Shown here one piece after another: positions 839 through 20,049 of a stretch of DNA of 64,000 nt. Within the stretch, counting starts at the first letter, position 1, and every line of letters begins with the position of its first letter. A program made the translations under genes and the position numbers. The notes under the pieces are model-generated. The model made no database searches. It saw only the letters and a list, made by a program, of their open reading frames with translations, and was not told the origin of the DNA. Source of the stretch: Nocardioides mesophilus (GTDB lineage Bacteria > Actinomycetota > Actinomycetes > Propionibacteriales > Nocardioidaceae). Where the stretch lies: contig NZ_CP060713.1 in the NCBI RefSeq assembly GCF_014395785.1, positions 586,501-650,500 of the forward strand, read 5' to 3'.

Positions 839-1864
839 TCATCGCCGCGGCTCCGAGACCAGCACCTGCTGGAGCGCCTCGAACTCCTCGACGCACTTGC
901 CGGCGCCCATCGCCACGGAGTGCAGCGGGTCGTCGGCGATGTGCACGGGCATCCCGGTCTCGTGGCGGATCCGCTCGTCGAGGCCGCGCAGCAGCGCACC
1001 GCCGCCGGTCAGCACCAGGCCGCGGTCCATGATGTCGCCGGCCAGCTCGGGGGGCGTCTGGTCCAGGGTGCTGCGCACCGCGTCGACGATCGCGTGCAGC
1101 GGCTCCTCGAGGGCCATCCGCACCTCCGCGCTGGAGACCACGATGGTCTTCGGCAGCCCGGAGATCATGTCGCGGCCGCGGATCTCCGCCTCCGGCTCGC
1201 TGGGCAGCGGGAAGGCGGAGCCGAGCGTCATCTTGATCTCCTCGGCGGTGCGCTCCCCCAGCATGAGGGAGTACTCCTTCTTCATCCAGGCGATGATCGA
1301 CTGGTCGAGGGTGTCGCCGGCGGTGCGCACCGACATGCTGGTGACGATGCCGCCGAGGGAGATGACGGCCACCTCGGTCGTGCCGCCCCCGACGTCGACG
1401 ACCATGTTCCCGGTGGCCTCGTGGACCGGGAGCCCGGCGCCGATCGCGGCGGCCATCGGCTCCTCGATGATGTAGACCCGGCGGGCGCCGGCCTGGTAGC
1501 CGGCCTCCTTGACCGCGCGCTGCTCGACGGCGGTGATCCCGCTCGGGACGCAGATCACCAGCCGCGGCTTGGTGAAGTAGCGGCGGCGGTGCACCTGCTG
1601 GATGAAGTAGCGCAGCATCTGCTCGGTCGACTCGAAGTCGGCGATCACGCCGTCCTTGAGCGGTCGGATGGCGGTGATGCTGTCGGGGGTGCGGCCGATC
1701 ATCCGCTTCGCCTCGTGGCCGACCGCCAGGATCTCCCCCGAGGAGGAGTTGAGGGCGACCACGGACGGCTCGTCGAGCAGGACGCCCTTGCCGCGCACGT
1801 AGACCAGCGTGTTGGCGGTGCCGAGGTCAACGGCCATGTCCCGACCGATGATGCTGTTCGCCAT
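839..1864 (-). CDS. mreB: Rod shape-determining protein MreB
   Basis: MreB is the bacterial actin that polymerises under the membrane and directs lateral wall synthesis (in many actinobacteria, polar or spore-wall functions). The 341-residue product has the usual family length and begins [20 protein letters not shown], whose DLGTANT is phosphate-binding loop 1. [18 protein letters not shown] is phosphate loop 2 and [13 protein letters not shown] the adenosine motif. ATG at 1864 was chosen because it matches the family N-terminus and is preceded by a purine-rich GAGGGGCAG. The longer open frame to 1912 is unlike MreB. mreC follows immediately. No anomalies are seen in the coding sequence. Confidence 0.97.
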
Positions 1865-2011
1865 GTCGCCTGCTGCCCCTCGTGGATCCGACCCGGAGTG
1901 GCGCGGCCACAACGCCCGCGCCGGGTGAGGAGCCCCAGCTGCCCCACCTTCACCAGAAGGCTAAGCGCGGCACGGCGGCCTCAGCGTGACGACACGCGGC
2001 GCTGCCACCAC

Positions 2012-2716
2012 TCAGCCTGGTCCGTCGGCCGCCCGGAGCTCGGCGGCCCGCTGCCGCACGGTCTCCGGGACCGCCAGGCCGCCGGCGTCCGCGGCGGTGA
2101 CCACCTCACCGGCTCGCACCGCCAGAGGCAGCACCCCCGCCCAGACCCCGGCCGCCACGTCGTCGTCCTCGTCCTCGGGGTCTCCCCGCCGGAGCTTCAC
2201 CGAGGCCTCGTGCAGCGGCAGCGCCAGCAGCCGGGTCGCCGCCAGCTCCTTGCGGGTCGGCCGGCGCAGCGTCGCCGCCCGGCCGGGCACCACCCGGTCC
2301 ACGAGCAGGTCCAGGGCGCGCAGCCGCTCGTCGGGGTCCTCGACGACACGGGGACGGCCGACCACCACCGCCGACCGGTAGTTCATCGAGTGGTTGAAGC
2401 CGGAGCGGGCCAGCACCAGCCCGTCGAGCACCGTGAACGTGACGCTCACGTCCTGGGCCGGCGCCTGGAGCAGGCTCCGCGAGGCGACCGAGCCGTGCAG
2501 GTAGAGCGTGCCGCCGTGGTCGCGGCCGGCGGGGTCCACCGCGAAGACGGTCGGGAGGGCCAGCGGGACGCCGTCCACGACGACGGCCAGGTGGCACAGG
2601 AACGAGGCGTCGAGGACGTCGTACAGCGCTGCCCGCTCGCTCTGCGCCCGCTCGCGCTCACGGCGCGGGGTGCTGCGCGGGGTCGGCGAGAGAGGTACGT
2701 CGTCGGCGGTGCTCAC
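2012..2716 (-). CDS. Pyridoxamine 5'-phosphate oxidase-related flavoprotein (NimA-like)
   Basis: A 234-residue protein of the PPOx/NimA flavin-binding split-barrel family. The core runs from about residue 20 to 200, with ALYDVLDASFLCHLAVVVDG, a strand carrying LYLHGSVASRSL and then GLVLARSGFNHSMNYRS. This is the arrangement of the nitroimidazole-resistance (NimA) branch, whose members bind FMN or similar cofactors and have mostly unknown substrates. The GTG start at 2716 gives VSTADDVPLSP. It is the last gene before the STAS gene on the same strand, 40 bases away. The family is clear; the substrate is not. Confidence 0.85.
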   Translation of the reverse strand: MSTADDVPLSPTPRSTPRRERERAQSERAALYDVLDASFLCHLAVVVDGVPLALPTVFAVDPAGRDHGGTLYLHGSVASRSLLQAPAQDVSVTFTVLDGLVLARSGFNHSMNYRSAVVVGRPRVVEDPDERLRALDLLVDRVVPGRAATLRRPTRKELAATRLLALPLHEASVKLRRGDPEDEDDDVAAGVWAGVLPLAVRAGEVVTAADAGGLAVPETVRQRAAELRAADGPG

Positions 2717-2756: not shown

Positions 2757-3068
2757 TCAGGACGAGGTGAAGACGAAGAGGTCGTCGAGTCCGACGATCC
2801 CCACCATCTTGACCACCATGGCCGGCGGGTCGCGCAACTCCAGCCGACCACCGGACGCGGCGAGGAGCTTGTGTCCCGAGAGCAGCGCGGCGAGGCCCGT
2901 GGAGTCCAGGAAGGTCAGCTTGGCCAGGTCCACGACCACCAGATCCACCCCGGCGGCCGCGTCCCGCAACGCCTGCTTGAGCTGCTCGGCCGTGGTGAGG
3001 TCGACCTCGCCCACCAGGGTGATCACCGAGCAGTCGGTGGAGCGGTGCACGTCGAGCGAGAAGTCCAC
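2757..3068 (-). CDS. STAS-domain anti-sigma factor antagonist
   Basis: A 103-residue single STAS domain of the SpoIIAA/RsbV type. In partner switching the unphosphorylated form binds an anti-sigma kinase and frees a sigma factor; PP2C phosphatases reactivate it. The phosphorylatable serine is Ser56 in LTFLDSTGLAALL, and the N-terminal strand VITLVGEVDLTTAEQL is typical. GTG at 3068 is preceded by AGGAAGAGGGG at good spacing. The gene is divergent from a GAF-PP2C phosphatase gene (146 bases between starts), which suggests enzyme and substrate. No HATPase kinase or sigma gene lies next to it, so its target is elsewhere. Confidence 0.92.
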   Translation of the reverse strand: MDFSLDVHRSTDCSVITLVGEVDLTTAEQLKQALRDAAAGVDLVVVDLAKLTFLDSTGLAALLSGHKLLAASGGRLELRDPPAMVVKMVGIVGLDDLFVFTSS

Positions 3069-3214
3069 GAGAGTCCCCTCTTCCTGGCTGCGGGCCGCCC
3101 GGGCGCGGGCGGCGACGGGGGCCGGATCGGGGCCAAATCTAGCCCACGCGCGCCCCGGACCTGCGTGATACGTTGGGCGTTCGTCGCGAAAGACCGCGGA
3201 AGGACTGCCGGCGC

Positions 3215-4546
3215 ATGGACGAGTCCAGACTCCCCTCCACGCTGGCCCGGGGGCAGCATGCTGCGCACGCCGACAACGTGGTCGGGCTCGGGCCCGCCTC
3301 AGCCGACTTCTCCCGCGCCCTCGACGTCGAGCTGGTCGCCTCGCTGAACGTGCGGCGCACCACCCTGCGGCTGCTGGACCTGGCGCGCACCCGCGTCGCG
3401 GACTGGGCGGTGGTGGTGCTCGACGTCCCGCGCAGCCGCACCCTGCACCTCTCCGGCGGCACCGACCCACGCTTCACCACCTCGGTGCGCTCCAGCGGGC
3501 CCGTCGAGGAGTTCCGCCGGCTGCTGGGCATCGGCTCGCCGGCCGCCCCGCTCCCCGAGCCCGGAGCGGTCGTCCGGCTGCTGCCCGAGGAGCGGCTGCG
3601 CTCCGAGGCCGCCGCGCTGCCGGCCGACGTGCTGGTCTTCCCGCTGCACGCGCGTGGCGACACCATCGGTGCGCTGCTGCTCGGCCGCTCGATCCAGCGT
3701 CCGCTGACCGAGGCCGAGGTCGCCCTGGCCGAGCAGCTCGCGGAGCGGGCGGCGGTCGCCCTCGACTCCGCGATGATCTACGAGGACCTCTCCCGGGTGA
3801 CCCGGGTGCTCGAGGACAGCCTGCGCCCGCCGCACCTGCCGCAGAGCCCCTCCCTCGACGTCGCCGCCGCCTTCCGGCCCGCTGCCGCGCACCTCGACAT
3901 CGGCGGCGACTTCTACGACGTGCACGGCGAGGAGGGCGACTGGCTGGTCGTCCTCGGCGACGTCTGCGGCAAGGGCGTCGAGGCGGCGGTGCTCAACGGC
4001 CGCGCCCGGCAGAGCATCCGGACCGCCGCGCGTTTCGACCGCCGGCCCGGCAAGCTGCTCGGCACCCTCAACGAGGTGCTCTACGAGGACGACTCCGACC
4101 GGTTCGTCACCGTCGCCTGCTGCCGGGTCCGGAGCCATGGGCTGCACCCCGGCCACGTGAGCGTCGACCTCGCGGTGGCCGGGCACCCGGCGCCGCTGGT
4201 GGTCCGTGCCGACGGCTCCGTGGAGCAGCCCGACGTGCGGGGCCGGCTGGCCGGCGCGATGCGGCACGACGACGCCTACCTCGAGGTCACCCTCCCCCTC
4301 GCTCCCGGGGACGCGCTGGTGCTCTACAGCGACGGCGTCTACGAGGCCCGCGGCGCGCAGGGGTTCTACGGCATGGACCGGATGCGGCAGGTGCTGGCGC
4401 CGTACGGCGGTGCCGGTGCGGCCGCGCTGTGCGAGGCCCTCGAGCGCGACGTCGTGGAACACCTCGACGGCCACGGGCACGACGACCTGACGGTCGTGGT
4501 GGTGGCCCCACGCGACCCGGCCGGCCACCTGGTCACCACGTGGTGA
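3215..4546 (+). CDS. GAF-domain PP2C (SpoIIE-type) serine phosphatase
   Basis: A 443-residue cytoplasmic phosphatase expected to dephosphorylate a STAS antagonist. Residues about 45-190 look like a GAF sensor domain, followed by a short helix and a PP2C/SpoIIE domain at about 215-432. The Mn/Mg-binding motifs are complete: GGDFYD (230-235), GDVCGKG (248-254), YSDGVYEA (371-378) and HDDLT (422-426). ATG at 3215 follows GGAAGGA. A B12-binding protein starts 15 bases after its stop, so the two are probably co-transcribed, and the STAS gene is divergent. The GAF ligand is unknown; no heme or bilin cysteine is evident. Confidence 0.93.
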   Translation: MDESRLPSTLARGQHAAHADNVVGLGPASADFSRALDVELVASLNVRRTTLRLLDLARTRVADWAVVVLDVPRSRTLHLSGGTDPRFTTSVRSSGPVEEFRRLLGIGSPAAPLPEPGAVVRLLPEERLRSEAAALPADVLVFPLHARGDTIGALLLGRSIQRPLTEAEVALAEQLAERAAVALDSAMIYEDLSRVTRVLEDSLRPPHLPQSPSLDVAAAFRPAAAHLDIGGDFYDVHGEEGDWLVVLGDVCGKGVEAAVLNGRARQSIRTAARFDRRPGKLLGTLNEVLYEDDSDRFVTVACCRVRSHGLHPGHVSVDLAVAGHPAPLVVRADGSVEQPDVRGRLAGAMRHDDAYLEVTLPLAPGDALVLYSDGVYEARGAQGFYGMDRMRQVLAPYGGAGAAALCEALERDVVEHLDGHGHDDLTVVVVAPRDPAGHLVTTW

Positions 4547-4561
4547 CGGGGTGGTGACCCA

Positions 4562-5623
4562 GTGCTGACCCCCGCCGCCACGACGGACCTGGACTCCCGC
4601 CTCCGGGAAGCGGCCGACCGGTTCGACCATGCGGTCACCACCGCCCGCCGGGACGCCGCGGTGCAGGTCGTCGAGGAGCTGCTCGACAGCGGCGTGGAGG
4701 CCATGACGGTCATGACCGACGTGATCGCCGCGGCCCAGCGCCACGTCGGCGCCCGCTGGCAGCGCGGCGAGTGGTCGGTCGCCCAGGAGCACGCCGCGAC
4801 CTCGGTCTCGGTCGCGGCGCTCGAGGCGGTCGCCCGCAAGGCCGCCACCGGCGCCCCCCACCGCGGGCACGTGGTCGTCGCCTGCGCCGAGCACGAGTGG
4901 CACGCGATGCCCGCCTCCATCGTCGCCGCCGGACTGCGCGCGGAGGGCTGGGAGGTGACGCTGCTCGGCGCCTCCACGCCCACCGCCCGGCTCAGCCGCT
5001 ACCTGCGCGACCTCGGGCCCGACGTGACCGCGGTGAGCTGCTCGGTGGCGGCCGGCCTGCCCACCTCCCGCGCGTTCATCGAGGCGAGCACCTCCGCCGG
5101 CATCCCGGTGCTGGCGGGAGGCGCCGCGTTCGGCACCGACGACCGCCGCGCCACCGCGCTCGGGGCCACCGCGTGGGCCGCCGACGTGCGCAGCGCCGTC
5201 GAGACCGTCGCCTCGCTGCCGATGGTGGTGCACGAGGCGGCTCCCCTGCCGGCGGAGATCACCCTGGAGCAGGTCGCCCTGCGGCACGCCGGCCATGCGC
5301 TGGTCGACGCGGTCGCGTTCCGCTGGCAGAACCGGCACGAGGCGCTCGGGCCGGTCGCCGACGAGGACGAGGCGGACCTGCTGCACGAGACGGTCGAGCA
5401 GGTCTACCACGCGGTCGTCGGGGCGCTGATCACCGGCGACGGCCGGTTGGTCGCCGAGACCGCCGCGTGGGTGGAGTCGGTGCTCGCGGTGCGCGGCATG
5501 CCGTCGTCCGCGGTGCGCGACCTCGGCCGCAGCATGGCGGCCGAGCTCGACGACTTCCCGCTCGCCGCCTCGATGTGGCAGCGTCACTGGCCCAGCGCCG
5601 GCGTCGGCTCCTGCCCGTCCTGA
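4562..5623 (+). CDS. Cobalamin-binding protein with CarH/LitR-type W-x9-EH signature, no HTH
   Basis: A 353-residue protein (GTG start). Residues about 15-95 form the helical B12-cap region and 100-220 the Rossmann-like B12-binding domain. W66-x9-E76-H77 is exactly the signature that in CarH/LitR photoreceptors packs over the upper face of adenosylcobalamin. E112-W113-H114 matches the E-x-H lower-ligand motif, although the usual final glycine is proline here. SCSVAAG (159-165) and AGGAAF fit the nucleotide-loop region. There is no MerR-type DNA-binding domain. Instead a helical C-terminal domain (about 230-345) of unknown role follows. It is 15 bases downstream of the PP2C phosphatase gene, so it may regulate partner switching. 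Light sensing is inference; a corrinoid carrier role is possible. Confidence 0.85.
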   Translation: MLTPAATTDLDSRLREAADRFDHAVTTARRDAAVQVVEELLDSGVEAMTVMTDVIAAAQRHVGARWQRGEWSVAQEHAATSVSVAALEAVARKAATGAPHRGHVVVACAEHEWHAMPASIVAAGLRAEGWEVTLLGASTPTARLSRYLRDLGPDVTAVSCSVAAGLPTSRAFIEASTSAGIPVLAGGAAFGTDDRRATALGATAWAADVRSAVETVASLPMVVHEAAPLPAEITLEQVALRHAGHALVDAVAFRWQNRHEALGPVADEDEADLLHETVEQVYHAVVGALITGDGRLVAETAAWVESVLAVRGMPSSAVRDLGRSMAAELDDFPLAASMWQRHWPSAGVGSCPS

Positions 5624-5656: not shown

Positions 5657-6073
5657 TCAGAGCGTCGGGAACCAGAGCGCGATCTCGCGCTCCGCGGACT
5701 CCGGGGAGTCCGAGCCGTGCACCAGGTTCTCGCGGTTCGACAGCGACAGGTCGCCACGGATGGTGCCCGGTGCCGCCTTGCGGCCGTCCGTCGCGCCGTT
5801 CAGTGCCCGCACCACCTCGACCGCCTCGTCACCCTCGAGGACCGCGGCGAGCAGCGGCCCGCTGGTGACGAAGTCCCGCAGCGGCGGGTAGAAGTCGCGC
5901 TCGACGTGCTCGGCGTAGTGCCGGTCGGCCATCGCCGCGTCGATCGTCCGCAGCTCCAGGGCGACCAGGCTCAGCCCCTTGGCCTCGAAGCGGGACAGGA
6001 CGTCGCCGACGAGGCCGCGGCGGACGGCGTCGGGCTTGAGCAGGACCAGGGTGCGCTGGGACGGCGAAGACAT
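5657..6073 (-). CDS. ndk: Nucleoside diphosphate kinase
   Basis: Ndk transfers the gamma-phosphate of NTPs to NDPs through a phosphohistidine, balancing nucleotide pools. The 138-residue product has the standard family length. It begins with RTLVLLKPDAVRRGL and carries the catalytic His119 in ENLVHGSDSPESAE. ATG at 6073 was chosen because the upstream extension does not resemble the family. It lies 10 bases downstream of a DUF4233 gene and in line with folC, forming a folC-DUF4233-ndk operon as in many actinobacteria. It converges on the B12-binding protein gene. Confidence 0.97.
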   Translation of the reverse strand: MSSPSQRTLVLLKPDAVRRGLVGDVLSRFEAKGLSLVALELRTIDAAMADRHYAEHVERDFYPPLRDFVTSGPLLAAVLEGDEAVEVVRALNGATDGRKAAPGTIRGDLSLSNRENLVHGSDSPESAEREIALWFPTL

Positions 6074-6083
6074 GGGCCGCACT

Positions 6084-6470
6084 CTAACCGGCGGCGCCGC
6101 CTCCGTGCTGCGCGGACCACTCCGCCTCGGCGGCGGCGCGCTCCAGGTTCTCCCGGTCGATCCGCTCGCCGAGGAAGTAGGCGCCGGCCCACAGCGCACC
6201 GAACACCACACCGAGGAAGAACATCGCCGGGACGAGGAAGCCCAGCCCGATGGAGAGGACCTGGACGGCCCAGCCGAGCAGGTAGCCGCCCGGACGGCGC
6301 AGCAGCCCGGCGGCCACGACGCACAGCAGCGCCAGCCCGAGCCCGATCCCGATCGAGGTGCCGGCGGACAGGTCGGTCGACCCGATCGTCGCCACGCCGG
6401 TGAGGAAGAGGACCACCGACTGCAGCGAGAGCATCCCGGCGCACATGGACCTCTTCAGCGAGCGCCTCAC
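6084..6470 (-). CDS. DUF4233 membrane protein
   Basis: A 128-residue integral membrane protein with about four hydrophobic helices (LQSVVLFLTGVATIG, GIGLGLALLCVVAAGLL, LGWAVQVLSIGLGFLVPAMF and a following helix) and a hydrophilic C-terminal tail ending ERAAAEAEWSAQHGG. It matches the DUF4233 family found between folC and ndk in actinobacteria; its function is unknown. The GTG start at 6470 overlaps the folC stop as GTGA, so translation is probably coupled. Residue spacing and the usual gene order support the call. Confidence 0.85.
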   Translation of the reverse strand: MRRSLKRSMCAGMLSLQSVVLFLTGVATIGSTDLSAGTSIGIGLGLALLCVVAAGLLRRPGGYLLGWAVQVLSIGLGFLVPAMFFLGVVFGALWAGAYFLGERIDRENLERAAAEAEWSAQHGGGAAG

Positions 6471-7940: not shown

Positions 7941-10571
7941 ATGACCACCGAGCAGCACTCCCCAGACCTGTCCGAGACGACGACGGCTCCCGGCCGCGAC
8001 GTCGTCGTACCGGACAAGCCGGCGCTGGAGGGGCTGGAGGCGCGCTGGTCCGAGCAGTGGAAGCACGACGACACCTACCGGTTCGACCGGACCAAGACCC
8101 GCGAGCAGGTCTACTCCATCGACACCCCGCCGCCGACCGTCTCCGGCTCCCTGCACGTGGGCCACGTGTTCTCCTACACCCACACCGACCTCATCGCCCG
8201 CTTCCAGCGGATGCGCGGCAAGGAGGTCTTCTACCCGATGGGGTGGGACGACAACGGGCTGCCGACCGAGCGCCGGGTGCAGAACTACTTCGGGGTGCGC
8301 TGCGACCCGTCGCTTCCCTACGACGCCGACTTCACCCCGCCGGAGAAGCCCGACCCCAAGAAGCAGGTGCCGATCAGCCGGCCCAACTTCATCGAGCTGT
8401 GCGAGCGGCTCGTGGAGGAGGACGAGCAGGTCTTCGAGTCGCTGTGGCGCACCCTGGGCCTCTCGGTGGACTGGTCGCAGCACTACACGACGATCGGCGC
8501 GCACTCGCAGACCGTGTCGCAGCGCGCGTTCCTGCGGAACTTCGCCCGCGGCGAGGCCTACCTCCAGGAGTCGCCGACCCTGTGGGACGTGACCTTCCAG
8601 ACCGCGGTCGCGCAGGCCGAGCTCGAGGCCCGCGAGTACGCCGGCAGCTACCACCGGGTCGCCTTCCACGGGCCCACCGGCCCGATCCACATCGAGACCA
8701 CCCGGCCGGAGCTGATCCCTGCGGTGGTGGCGCTGATCGCGCACCCCGACGACGAGCGCTACCAGCCGCTGTTCGGCTCCACGGTCACCTCGCCGGTGTT
8801 CGGGGTGGAGATCCCGGTCCTCGCCCACCCGCTCGCGGAGCCCGACAAGGGCGCCGGCATCGCGATGTGCTGCACGTTCGGCGACCTCACCGACGTCACC
8901 TGGTGGCGCGAGCTGCAGCTGCCGGTGCGCACGGTGATCGGCCGCGACGGCCGCCTGCACCGGGACACCCCGGAGTGGCTGGCGGCCGAGCCGGCCGCCA
9001 CGGCGTACGCCGACCTGGCCGGCAAGACCACCTTCAGCGCCCGCGAGGCGATGGTGGCCAAGCTGCGCGAGAGCGGCGACCTCGACGGCGAGCCGAAGCC
9101 GACCCAGCGGATGACGAACTTCTACGAGAAGGGCGACAAGCCGCTGGAGATCGTCTCCACCCGCCAGTGGTACATCCGCAACGGCGGCCGCGACGCCGAG
9201 CTGCGTGAGGAGCTGCTCGAGCGCGGCGCGGAGATCCAGTGGCTGCCGCCGCACATGCGGCACCGCTACGACAACTGGGTCAGCGGCCTCAACGGCGACT
9301 GGCTGATCTCCCGGCAGCGGTTCTTCGGCATCCCGTTCCCGGTCTGGTACCCCCTCGACGACGAGGGCGAGCCCGACTACGAGCACCCGCTGATGCCGAC
9401 CGAGGCGGAGCTGCCGGTGGACCCCTCCACCCGGGCGCCGCGCGGCTACGAGGACGCCCAGCGCGGCGTGCCCGGGGGCTTCATCGGCGACCCCGACGTC
9501 ATGGACACCTGGGCCACCTCCTCGCTGACCCCGCAGATCGCGGGGCACTGGGAGGACGACCCGGACCTGTTCGGACGGGTCTTCCCGATGGACCTGTGCA
9601 CCCACGCGCACGACATCATCCGCACCTGGCTGTTCTCCCGGGTCGTCCGGGCGCACCACGAGCACGGTGTGGTGCCTTGGTCGCACGCGCTGATCTCCGG
9701 CTTCATCGTCGACCCGGACCGCAAGAAGATGAGCAAGTCCAAGGGCAACGTGGTCGTCCCGACCGAGATCCTCGACAAGTTCGGCGCGGACGCGGTGCGC
9801 TGGCGCGCGGCGGTGGCCCGCCCGGGCCTGGACTCGCCGTTCGACGAGACCCAGATGAAGGTCGGCCGCCGGCTGGCGATGAAGGTGCTGAACGCCTCCA
9901 AGTTCGTGCTCGGCAGCGTGGGCGCCTCCGACCTGACCCGCGGCGCGGTCAGCGAGCCGGTCGACTGCGCGATGCTCGGCGGGCTGGCCGCCACCATCAC
10001 CCGCGCGACGGAGGCGTTCGAGGCCTACGACTACACCACGGCGCTGGAGGTCTCGGAGAAGTTCTTCTGGGAGTTCTGCGACGACTACCTCGAGCTGGTC
10101 AAGGAGCGCGCGTACGGCGCCCGCGGCGACGATGCCGCTGCCTCGGCGAAGGCGGCGCTGGCGATCGCGTTGCACGCGCAGCTGCGGCTGCTCGCACCGT
10201 TCCTGCCCTACGTGACCGAGGAGGTCTGGTCGTGGTGGCAGGAGGGGTCGGTGCACCGGCAGCCGTGGCCCGAGCCGACCGACCTCGGCTCGGCTGCCGC
10301 CGAGGACGCCGCGATGCTGGGTGCGGTCGCGCAGACCCTCACCGGGATCCGCGGCGCGAAGTCGCAGGCCAAGGTGTCGATGCGCACCGAGCTCTCCCGG
10401 GTGGTGGTCAGCGGGCCGGCGGCGACCGTCGCGCTCGCCGAGCAGGCCGCGGACGACCTGCGGGCGGCCGGGCGGATCACCGGTGAGCTGCTCTTCACCG
10501 CCGACGAGCAGGGCGGCGAGGGTGCCGAGCTGAAGGTGGCGGCCGAGGTGGCCCCGCCGGCGGCCGACTGA
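7941..10571 (+). CDS. valS: Valine-tRNA ligase
   Basis: A class I aminoacyl-tRNA synthetase of 876 residues that charges tRNA-Val and edits misactivated threonine. The HIGH motif is SGSLHVGH (68-75) and the KMSKS motif KMSKS is at 596-600, followed by the anticodon-binding domain. The stretch [20 protein letters not shown] is typical of the shorter actinobacterial/archaeal-like ValS branch. ATG at 7941 follows GTAGGA and agrees with homologues, so the extra upstream frame is dismissed. No T-box leader is apparent in the 97-base gap to folC. A long palindrome after the stop (10590-10639) probably terminates it. Confidence 0.97.
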
Positions 10572-18526: not shown

Positions 18527-18602
18527 TGGTCGGGGCGACAGGACTCGAACCTGCGATCTCCTGCTCCCAAAGCAGGCGCGCTAGCCACTACGCTACGCCC
18601 CG
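18527..18602 (-). tRNA. tRNA-Pro (anticodon TGG), CCA encoded
   Basis: A complete cloverleaf on the minus strand: acceptor CGGGGCG/CGCCCCG, D-arm GCGTAGTGGCTAGCGC, anticodon stem CCTGC/GCAGG with loop TTTGGGA (anticodon TGG), and T-arm with TTCGAGT. Discriminator A is followed by an encoded CCA. It lies just upstream of tig. Confidence 0.95.
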
Positions 18603-18757: not shown

Positions 18758-18828
18758 GCGGATGTAGCTCAATGGTAGAGCCCTAGTCTTCCAAACTAGC
18801 TACGCGGGTTCGATTCCCGTCATCCGCT
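18758..18828 (+). tRNA. tRNA-Gly (anticodon TCC)
   Basis: Acceptor GCGGATG pairs with CATCCGC, the D-arm is GCTCAATGGTAGAGC, and anticodon stem CTAGT/ACTAG encloses loop CTTCCAA (anticodon TCC). The T-arm contains TTCGATT. Discriminator is T and CCA is not encoded. Confidence 0.95.
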
Positions 18829-18843
18829 CCGCGTCGCAGACAG

Positions 18844-18930: not shown

Positions 18931-20049
18931 TCAGCGGCGGTGCAGCAGGAACAGCGCGCGGTCGTCGTTCATCGACTCCACCCGGTCGATGAGCCGGTGG
19001 GCGCCCTGCTCGAAGCCCGAGCGCAGCAGCCGCTCGCTCTGGCCGAGCAGCTTGTCGATGCCGAGCGAGATGTCGCGACGCGGCGTCTCGACCAGCCCGT
19101 CGGTGAACAGCAGCATCGCGTCGCCGCGCTGCAGGGTGCCGGTGACCACGCCGAACTCGGCGTCGCCGATCAGGCCGAGGATCGGCCCCTCCGCCTCGAG
19201 CACACCCCACCGGCCGGAGCCGGCGTGCAGCTGGACCGCGGGCGGGTGGCCGGCCGAGCGCAGCTCGAAGACGCCGCTGCGCAGGTTGATCGAGAGGTGC
19301 ACCGCGGTGGCGAAGCCCTCCGGCCAGTCCTGGCGCAGCAGGTAGTCGTTGGCCGCGGGCAGGAAGCCGGAGGCGGGCAGGGCCCCGAGCAGGCCGCCGA
19401 AGGCGCCCGAGAGCAGCAGGGACCGGGTGCCGGCCTGCTCCCCCTTGCCGGAGACGTCGACCACCGCGACCTCGAGCTGGTCGTCGTGCCGGGCCCGCGA
19501 GGCGACCAGGAAGTCGCCGGCGAACGACGACCCTCCGGCCGAACGCATCACGAACTCGGTGTACCAGTCCTGCGGCATCGGGGGCATCTGTCCCTGCTTG
19601 GCGATCCGGTCGCGCAGGTCCACCAGCATCGACTCGCCGAGCGCGCCGGCCACGCCGAGCCGGGTCCGGCGGAACGACGAGACCAGGATGACCAGGCCCA
19701 CCAGGAACGTCACGACCACCGCGCCGACCCGGCGGGCGTCCAACGACAGCGACGGCGTCGTCGCCACCACCAGCACCGCCACTCCCAGCACGAACACCAC
19801 GAACCAGGGCAGCGTGCGAGGGCTCAGCACGATGTTGCCGACCACCAGTGGCAGGGTCAGGGCGCTCACCGTGGCCCCGGGCACGCCGCTGCCCAACGCC
19901 ACGCCCAGGACGACCGTCACGGCCGCCAGCATCAGCACCCAGGTGATCTCGGCCTCGCGGTAGCGCCGCACGGTGGAGTTCCACCGTCGCGTCCACGCCT
20001 GACGGCCGGGCACAGTCGTCAGGCGGTCCGGATGCGAGGCGGCGACCAC
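18931..20049 (-). CDS. Membrane-bound PP2C (SpoIIE-type) phosphatase
   Basis: A 372-residue protein with four to five N-terminal membrane helices (about residues 33-125, e.g. WVLMLAAVTVVLGVAL and GAVVVTFLVGLVILVSSF) and a cytoplasmic PP2C domain at about 155-372. The metal motifs are AGDFLVA, VVDVSGKGEQAG, LFTDGLVE and the C-terminal NDDRALFLL. It probably dephosphorylates STAS-type antagonists, linking a membrane signal to sigma-factor partner switching. The start is GTG at 20049. No antagonist or kinase gene is adjacent; the STAS gene at 2.8 kb is a candidate substrate only by presence. Confidence 0.9.
   Translation of the reverse strand: MVAASHPDRLTTVPGRQAWTRRWNSTVRRYREAEITWVLMLAAVTVVLGVALGSGVPGATVSALTLPLVVGNIVLSPRTLPWFVVFVLGVAVLVVATTPSLSLDARRVGAVVVTFLVGLVILVSSFRRTRLGVAGALGESMLVDLRDRIAKQGQMPPMPQDWYTEFVMRSAGGSSFAGDFLVASRARHDDQLEVAVVDVSGKGEQAGTRSLLLSGAFGGLLGALPASGFLPAANDYLLRQDWPEGFATAVHLSINLRSGVFELRSAGHPPAVQLHAGSGRWGVLEAEGPILGLIGDAEFGVVTGTLQRGDAMLLFTDGLVETPRRDISLGIDKLLGQSERLLRSGFEQGAHRLIDRVESMNDDRALFLLHRR

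Follow-up and report, generated by a model that had tools for sequence, protein, structure and literature searches.

Within a stretch of 64,000 nucleotides of Nocardioides mesophilus DNA (NCBI RefSeq assembly GCF_014395785.1, contig NZ_CP060713.1, positions 586,501 to 650,500; hereafter the window), we analysed a locus in which the gene for a 353-aa B12-binding protein follows that for a GAF-PP2C phosphatase, with 15 bases between the stop of the latter and the start of the former (4547-4561), and in which a gene for a STAS protein is read divergently. The original prediction had proposed that these three genes form a light- or cobalamin-gated partner switch, and the positions of all three, the 15-base gap and the divergent orientation of the STAS gene were confirmed. 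The PP2C frame is also open from an upstream TTG at 3173, and the STAS start (GTG 3068) was picked for its purine-rich leader.

The B12 protein matches the Pfam models B12-binding (1.5e-18) and B12-binding_2 (8e-15), and its closest solved structures by sequence are those of SasPcob from Saccharothrix syringae (8J2X/8J2W, E 1.6e-55) and 8J2Y (5.4e-44), CarH following at 1e-8; a profile built from ten relatives likewise ranks photocobilins far above CarH. Its AlphaFold2 (AF2) model, with a predicted local distance difference test (pLDDT) of 89.9 and a predicted template modelling score (pTM) of 0.86, aligns in Foldseek with 8J2W over nearly its full length (query-normalised template modelling score (TMq) 0.80, E 2e-19), and with CarH at a TMq of about 0.46 over about 210 columns. 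Identity in the structure comparison amounts to 35-36% over 331-342 columns for the SasPcob structures and 32% for AbPcob, and the window protein and SasPcob share 39% over 313 aligned positions. The resemblance is far beyond chance, and the B12 protein is a stand-alone photocobilin (Pcob), a member of that named family. Its architecture is that of a photocobilin, a cobalamin domain of four-helix bundle and Rossmann fold followed by a globin-like domain, with both sets of photoreceptor residues (W-x9-EH and E/D-x-H) present (Table 1); W66, E76, H77 and H114 are invariant across all 113 full-length rows of our alignment. The SasPcob residue numbers W61, E71/H72 and H108 are taken from PMC10979010, and E106, which pairs with E112, was obtained by counting.

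The residues highlighted by the original prediction (W66-x9-E76-H77 and E112-x-H114), the lack of a DNA-binding domain, of which Pfam finds none, and the PP2C next door are thus all borne out. The residues are indeed those of the CarH/LitR signature, but CarH/LitR is not the nearest family, photocobilins being nearer both in sequence and in structure; the extra C-terminal helical domain is likewise present, but it has a known identity that had not been given, that of the photoglobin or bilin domain. A CarH-like transcription factor was ruled out on the missing DNA-binding domain and on the score of the CarH model NF052513 (51 bits against a cut-off of 400), and a methyltransferase corrinoid protein on models that fall far below their cut-offs, photocobilins matching far better.

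Table 1. Features of the photocobilin locus and its surroundings (window coordinates; residue numbers refer to the respective protein).
Feature	Position	Strand	Basis
Stand-alone photocobilin (Pcob, B12 protein), 353 aa, GTG start	4562..5623	+	best PDB sequence matches SasPcob/AbPcob; AF2 model
Cobalamin-binding region, residues 18-211, four-helix bundle and Rossmann fold	4613..5194	+	PF02607 18-89, PF02310 102-211
Trp66, equivalent to SasPcob Trp61 (stacks on adenosyl ribose, PMC10979010)	4757..4759	+	alignment
Glu76-His77, equivalent to SasPcob Glu71-His72 (dimer-crossing network, PMC10979010)	4787..4792	+	alignment
Glu112-Trp113-His114; His114 equivalent to SasPcob His108, lower axial Co ligand (PMC10979010)	4895..4903	+	alignment
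C-terminal globin-like (photoglobin) domain, residues about 228-342	5243..5587	+	full-length alignment to 8j2w/8j2y
Trp255; Trp in 61/63 small-residue rows, Leu in 26/26 Asp rows	5324..5326	+	alignment
Thr277 at the SasPcob Asp270 position (biliverdin contact; His in AbPcob)	5390..5392	+	alignment
Trp303, equivalent to SasPcob Trp296 (contacts bilin ring D), kept	5468..5470	+	alignment
GAF-PP2C (SpoIIE-type, PPM) phosphatase, 443 aa from ATG 3215	3215..4546	+	Pfam; AF2 model
Predicted 38-residue helix, PP2C residues 166-203, joining GAF to phosphatase domain	3710..3823	+	AF2 model
SpoIIE/PPM catalytic domain; motifs GGDFYD, GDVCGKG, SDG, HDD	3932..4504	+	Pfam
STAS anti-sigma-factor antagonist, 103 aa, DSTG (Ser56); candidate substrate	2757..3068	-	Pfam; TIGR00377
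Divergent intergenic region, 146 bases, between STAS and PP2C	3069..3214	.	open reading frame coordinates
Pyridoxamine-oxidase-like gene, left of STAS	2012-2716	-	Pfam
mreB, left side	839-1912	-	Pfam
ndk, right of B12 protein	5657-6073	-	Pfam

The phosphatase matches SpoIIE (8e-42) and GAF (1.6e-6) in Pfam, and its AF2 model reaches a pLDDT of 83.0 and a pTM of 0.63, at which domain placement is uncertain. The Asp residues of its catalytic motifs, which we take to be metal-binding, are widely kept among the 80 paired PP2Cs described below, with those of GGD, GDV, SDG and HDD present in 79-80 of the 80 and the second Asp of GGDFYD in 71. The STAS protein matches STAS_2 (1.3e-17, for a translation with one extra codon), scores above the cut-off of the TIGR00377 model 'anti-sigma factor antagonist' (62.1 against 53.45 bits), and offers Ser56, within DSTG, as a putative acceptor-type serine.

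Across the Actinomycetes loci seen, the PP2C-photocobilin pairing hardly varies. One-genome-per-species data gave 263 relatives, of which the best 80 (the named loci) were kept, a choice that leans to near kin. In 79 of them, i.e., in 79 of 79 testable loci, the next gene upstream, read from the same strand, is a PP2C like that of the window; the contig of the 80th (L084) starts about 180 bases before the match. The record titles of the 80 loci name actinobacterial genera or families, and the pair occurs in Actinokineospora, Amycolatopsis, Umezawaea, Saccharomonospora, Kribbella, Mycobacterium/Mycolicibacterium, Dactylosporangium, Actinoplanes, Micromonospora, Streptomyces, Pseudonocardia, Saccharothrix and Sphaerisporangium. 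Some photocobilins are identical at two loci (L002=L032, L003=L045, L005=L093, L072=L112, L078=L114, L098=L099), so that the rows are partly non-independent. In an even sample of the phylum (396 genomes, 28 of them with a match at E 1e-30 or better, 33 matches), PP2C stands beside all 12 Actinomycetes matches, our own locus included, and, among called genes within 1.5 kb, beside none of the 18 fetched matches (of 21) in other classes, six of which are without a globin match. The conservation of the gene pair that the original prediction had presupposed is therefore found in the Actinomycetes loci of both sets. For the near relatives, PP2C accompanies seven of eight testable full-length fetched loci, the exception (L009) being a GGDEF fusion; in that set L006 ends at a contig edge, and G013:C115, which is listed and likely full-length, was left out. 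As a control, we examined 20 loci (L011-L030) at which the same search had matched other B12-binding proteins; none has this PP2C among called genes within 1.5 kb.

The linkage also holds in the opposite direction. When relatives of the PP2C were searched for in 296 genomes of the class, with 30 loci fetched from a longer list (a single locus for each genome, so that second matches such as G699:C1:4906911 were left out) and adjacency taken as within about 1.5 kb per side, a photocobilin adjoined 24 of the 30, including the 22 best-scoring. Because the N. mesophilus genome holds 13 SpoIIE matches in 4.49 Mb, the probability that the two genes adjoin by chance is, by our estimate, well below one percent for each locus. 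Between the PP2C stop and the nearest possible photocobilin start the median distance is -4, with values of 0 or below in 57 and of 60 or below in 78 of the 80 loci, this choice of start biasing the gaps toward small values; PP2C and photocobilin distances correlate with r = 0.95 over the 80 pairs, uncorrected for shared ancestry. The two genes would form one transcript, and the adjacent PP2C is the probable partner of the photocobilin. We consider it highly unlikely that they are co-transcribed yet independent, the photocobilin having another target and the PP2C answering only its GAF domain: although operon partners need not touch, and although PP2C is missing beside the 18 loci from outside Actinomycetes (with six lacking a globin match and three further matches unfetched), the linkage is found from either gene, overlapping genes occur, and the pair persists in each of two deep clades even though STAS is sometimes present and sometimes missing.

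Some loci of these surveys depart from the single pair. G095 carries two PP2C-photocobilin pairs (L113, L139), one without the biliverdin-contacting Asp treated below (Thr) and one with it. In L164 (about 4042-4302) and L169 (about 3988-4284) the first photocobilin-like B12 match is followed directly by another, possibly as tandem photocobilins, these second matches being truncated at or close to the end of the fetched region. In L156 (about 2832-3221) the photocobilin match is weak and divided between two frames, which may reflect decay of the gene copy or an error in sequencing.

In SasPcob, Asp270 and Trp296 contact biliverdin, and AbPcob, which has His at the Asp270 position, binds biliverdin poorly (PMC10979010). 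This Asp is absent from the window photocobilin, where the alignment places Thr277, and it is not strictly defining of photocobilins, as AbPcob illustrates. Among full-length Actinomycetes rows, position 277 holds a small or aliphatic residue in 63, Asp in 26 and His or Gln in six, a count that sets aside three ambiguous Pseudonocardia rows (L088, L089, L101) and the L009 fusion; in an earlier alignment count L088 and L089 had been classed with the small residues, and L101 and L009 with Asp. Since residue 276 is Asp in 58 of 65 Asp-less rows, an alignment off by one was considered and rejected: the 26-residue spacing to Trp303 and Trp296 is gapless and the hydrophobic pattern matches by reading, which argues that Thr277 corresponds to Asp270.

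A tree built without position 277 (a quick method, supported only by the Shimodaira-Hasegawa-like approximate likelihood ratio test (SH-aLRT), with 69 of 113 rows kept after dropping those at least 72% identical) unites the rows with small residues and those with His/Gln in one group (35 rows, SH-aLRT 98) and sets the Asp rows, SasPcob and the ambiguous Pseudonocardia rows beside them as a sister group (20 rows, SH-aLRT 88), the fork joining the two having an SH-aLRT of 84. Judged from its sequence, the window photocobilin belongs to a large clade without the biliverdin-contact Asp. With W66, E76, H77 and H114 invariant and positions 277 and 255 changed, cobalamin photochemistry is therefore predicted to be kept and the bilin pocket to be altered.

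The distribution of heme oxygenase (PF01126) was surveyed in 32 genomes, some incomplete and one (G113) not counted, and kinship confounds the comparison. A match was found in six of seven genomes with Asp-bearing, PP2C-linked photocobilins (five of the six from one genus), in one of six with an Asp-less small residue (weak, 38 bits), in two of five with His or Gln, in one of 12 with a GGDEF fusion or from other classes, and not in G095, which has both kinds. The N. mesophilus genome holds no PF01126 heme oxygenase, other heme-degrading enzymes not having been searched for, and it encodes two ATP:cobalamin adenosyltransferase families for making adenosylcobalamin (AdoCbl). Heme oxygenase is thus suggestive as a marker of biliverdin use within Actinomycetes only, not in general, and we do not rest the case on it.

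At least 43 of the 80 loci have a STAS gene in the neighbourhood of the pair, in three arrangements: divergent upstream only in 19, downstream only in six, same-strand upstream only in six and in two places in 12, with none found in 37. This tally, made with hidden Markov models (HMMs) from two neighbour clusters on contigs some of which are short, is a lower bound, as the downstream STAS genes of L041 and L056 were missed by the HMMs and found by single-sequence search. STAS as a fixed third gene was accordingly rejected; of the three-gene layout sought in other genomes, the PP2C-photocobilin pair is conserved but STAS is not a constant member. Complete sets are seen in L034 (STAS-HATPase-PP2C-Pcob) and in L092 of S. 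coeruleofusca (PP2C-Pcob-STAS-HATPase), whose photocobilin is 76% identical to SasPcob, and in L066 PP2C-Pcob is divergent from STAS-HATPase-STAS, the outer STAS lying below its cut-off. STAS proteins are plausible substrates of the phosphatase because they lie near the pair in so many loci and because full sets exist in these three (the L066 set being divergent). Candidates for an RsbW-type kinase (PF13581) occur elsewhere in the N. mesophilus genome, and one SigBFG protein over cut-off is encoded far from the locus (G000:3234042-3234710), with a PF13581 match at 3234881-3235171. Two further neighbourhoods were recorded: in a Mycolicibacterium (L068) a sub-cut-off CsbD match (5885-6226, -) sits between STAS-like genes, the CsbD family belonging to general stress regulons, and in Micromonospora gifhornensis (L097) a response-regulator receiver gene (9505-9957, +), not a kinase, comes after PP2C-photocobilin-STAS.

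Taken together, the family, the motifs, the conservation of the gene pair and the absent Asp, all read from sequence, point to a photocobilin-gated phosphatase, and we put the probability at roughly 60% that the locus encodes an AdoCbl-dependent, green-light photocobilin that gates the GAF-PP2C in trans with weak or no use of biliverdin. By analogy with SasPcob, which is a dimer in the dark and a monomer in the light (PMC10979010), AdoCbl would hold the protein in the dark as a head-to-tail dimer via W66, E76 and H77, and green light would break the Co-C bond, releasing the monomer. One of the two forms, dark or light, would then bind the GAF-PP2C of the same operon and alter its dimer, a step suggested by RsbU, in which a partner protein makes flexible linkers form a coiled coil and so yields the dimerised, active phosphatase (PMC12143880), and by stand-alone photocobilins, which alter diguanylate cyclase activity in trans in vitro, AbPcob changing its oligomer state (PMC10979010). 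Binding may shift the pairing of the phosphatase domains via the long helix between GAF and phosphatase and thereby switch activity; the PP2C would dephosphorylate STAS antagonists, the divergent STAS gene being the first candidate, and dephosphorylated STAS would tie up an RsbW-type kinase, releasing a SigF/SigB-like sigma factor. In the clade of the window, loss of the contact Asp probably leaves a sensor mainly or only of cobalamin, with little red-light response.

Several observations weigh against this scheme. The effect of light on the test enzyme is reversed in SasPcob without biliverdin (PMC10979010), so that control here could run in either direction. With a GAF domain of its own, the PP2C may respond to another signal; given the inconstancy of STAS, the substrate may be other than the divergent STAS; and the window contains no RsbW-type kinase match, none of the genome's 37 PF13581 matches falling at G000:586501-650500. 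Outside the PP2C-linked Actinomycetes, moreover, heme oxygenase does not track the Asp, which ten of the 12 genomes with a GGDEF fusion or from other classes carry. Finally, Trp303 and Arg311 are invariant in 63 of 63 Asp-less rows, so that some ligand may still occupy the bilin pocket. With the full-length globin domain, and with AbDPcob, whose His at the Asp270 position leaves a red-light response at about 20% biliverdin occupancy (PMC10979010), this would fit a full photocobilin in which, despite Thr277, biliverdin or another bilin sits in an altered pose, and which gates the PP2C by sensing both green and red light; the contact Asp missing from all 63 rows, the replacement of Leu by Trp at 255 in nearly all of them and the lack in the genome itself of PF01126, the heme-degrading family searched for, make this unlikely. 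Control of the phosphatase by cobalamin availability, through the holo or apo state and not through light, could draw on AbDPcob, whose cyclase activity is lowered by AdoCbl binding alone relative to the apo form (PMC10979010), yet we judge it quite improbable, as the constancy of W66, E76 and H77 fits selection for a photo-labile adenosyl pocket. We accordingly retain the green-light, cobalamin-based photocobilin acting on PP2C as the preferred reading.

Compared with SasPcob (8J2W, 8J2X), the window protein is of the same length class and shares the W-x9-EH and E-x-H residues and the C-terminal globin domain, and the L092 relative of SasPcob likewise follows a PP2C, with STAS and HATPase genes behind it; the two differ where Asp270 and a globin-domain Leu of SasPcob are replaced by Thr277 and Trp255, and they represent separate clades of PP2C-linked photocobilins. 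AbDPcob/AbPcob (8J2Y) share the photocobilin domain and also lack the Asp (His), but in AbDPcob the output is a fused diguanylate cyclase, whereas the candidate output here is a separate PP2C. CarH/LitR proteins have the same photoreceptor residues in the cobalamin-binding domain; the window photocobilin differs by having no MerR-type domain and an extra globin domain. Among photoglobins a CXQD motif is mentioned, and the homologous globin domain of RsbR served as outgroup (PMC10151467). The phosphatase resembles RsbU/RsbP-type enzymes in combining a PP2C (PPM) domain with an N-terminal sensor domain and a helical linker, and SpoIIE or STAS outputs have also been described for blue-light LOV/BLUF proteins (PMC4844311); in contrast to these, its candidate partner is a separate B12 photoreceptor and not RsbT or a fused LOV domain.

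With respect to the surroundings of the locus, Nocardioides iriomotensis (L032) shows the same gene order of mreB-like, STAS, PP2C, B12 protein, ndk-like and folC-like genes (the mreB-, ndk- and folC-like labels assigned by reading), and since G001, which belongs to the same genus as the window genome, encodes an identical B12 protein, the position of the cluster is kept within the genus. In the divergent intergenic region no sigma-70-like promoter match was found, and the promoter and terminator scan was empty. The window holds a second SpoIIE-type PP2C match at 18937-19485 (-) (G000:605437-605985), which adjoins tRNA-Pro (18527-18602, -) and tRNA-Gly (18758-18830, +).

The photocobilin family is already known, and STAS, SpoIIE and PP2C had been named as potential SasPcob partners by network prediction, in a paper in which the role of stand-alone photocobilins 'is less clear' (PMC10979010). 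Our analysis adds the near-invariant pairing with PP2C, the linkage in both directions and the signature of the Asp-less clade; in the literature covered, which included few subscription papers, we found no report of a conserved operon or of such a clade. A pair kept in every testable locus of the best 80 of 263 gives stand-alone photocobilins one concrete enzyme partner, and photocobilins with and without the biliverdin-contact Asp beside the same kind of enzyme form a natural set in which the role of the second chromophore becomes testable. More tentatively, and with somewhat less than an even chance in our view, gating of GAF-PP2C in trans would be the main job of stand-alone photocobilins across Actinomycetes, and the Asp-less clade a chromophore variant that links green light to partner-switch control of sigma factors, a variant whose pigment may be cobalamin alone or, in a pocket remodelled to contain Trp, some other tetrapyrrole. 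The locus thus holds a possible green-light-controlled protein phosphatase.

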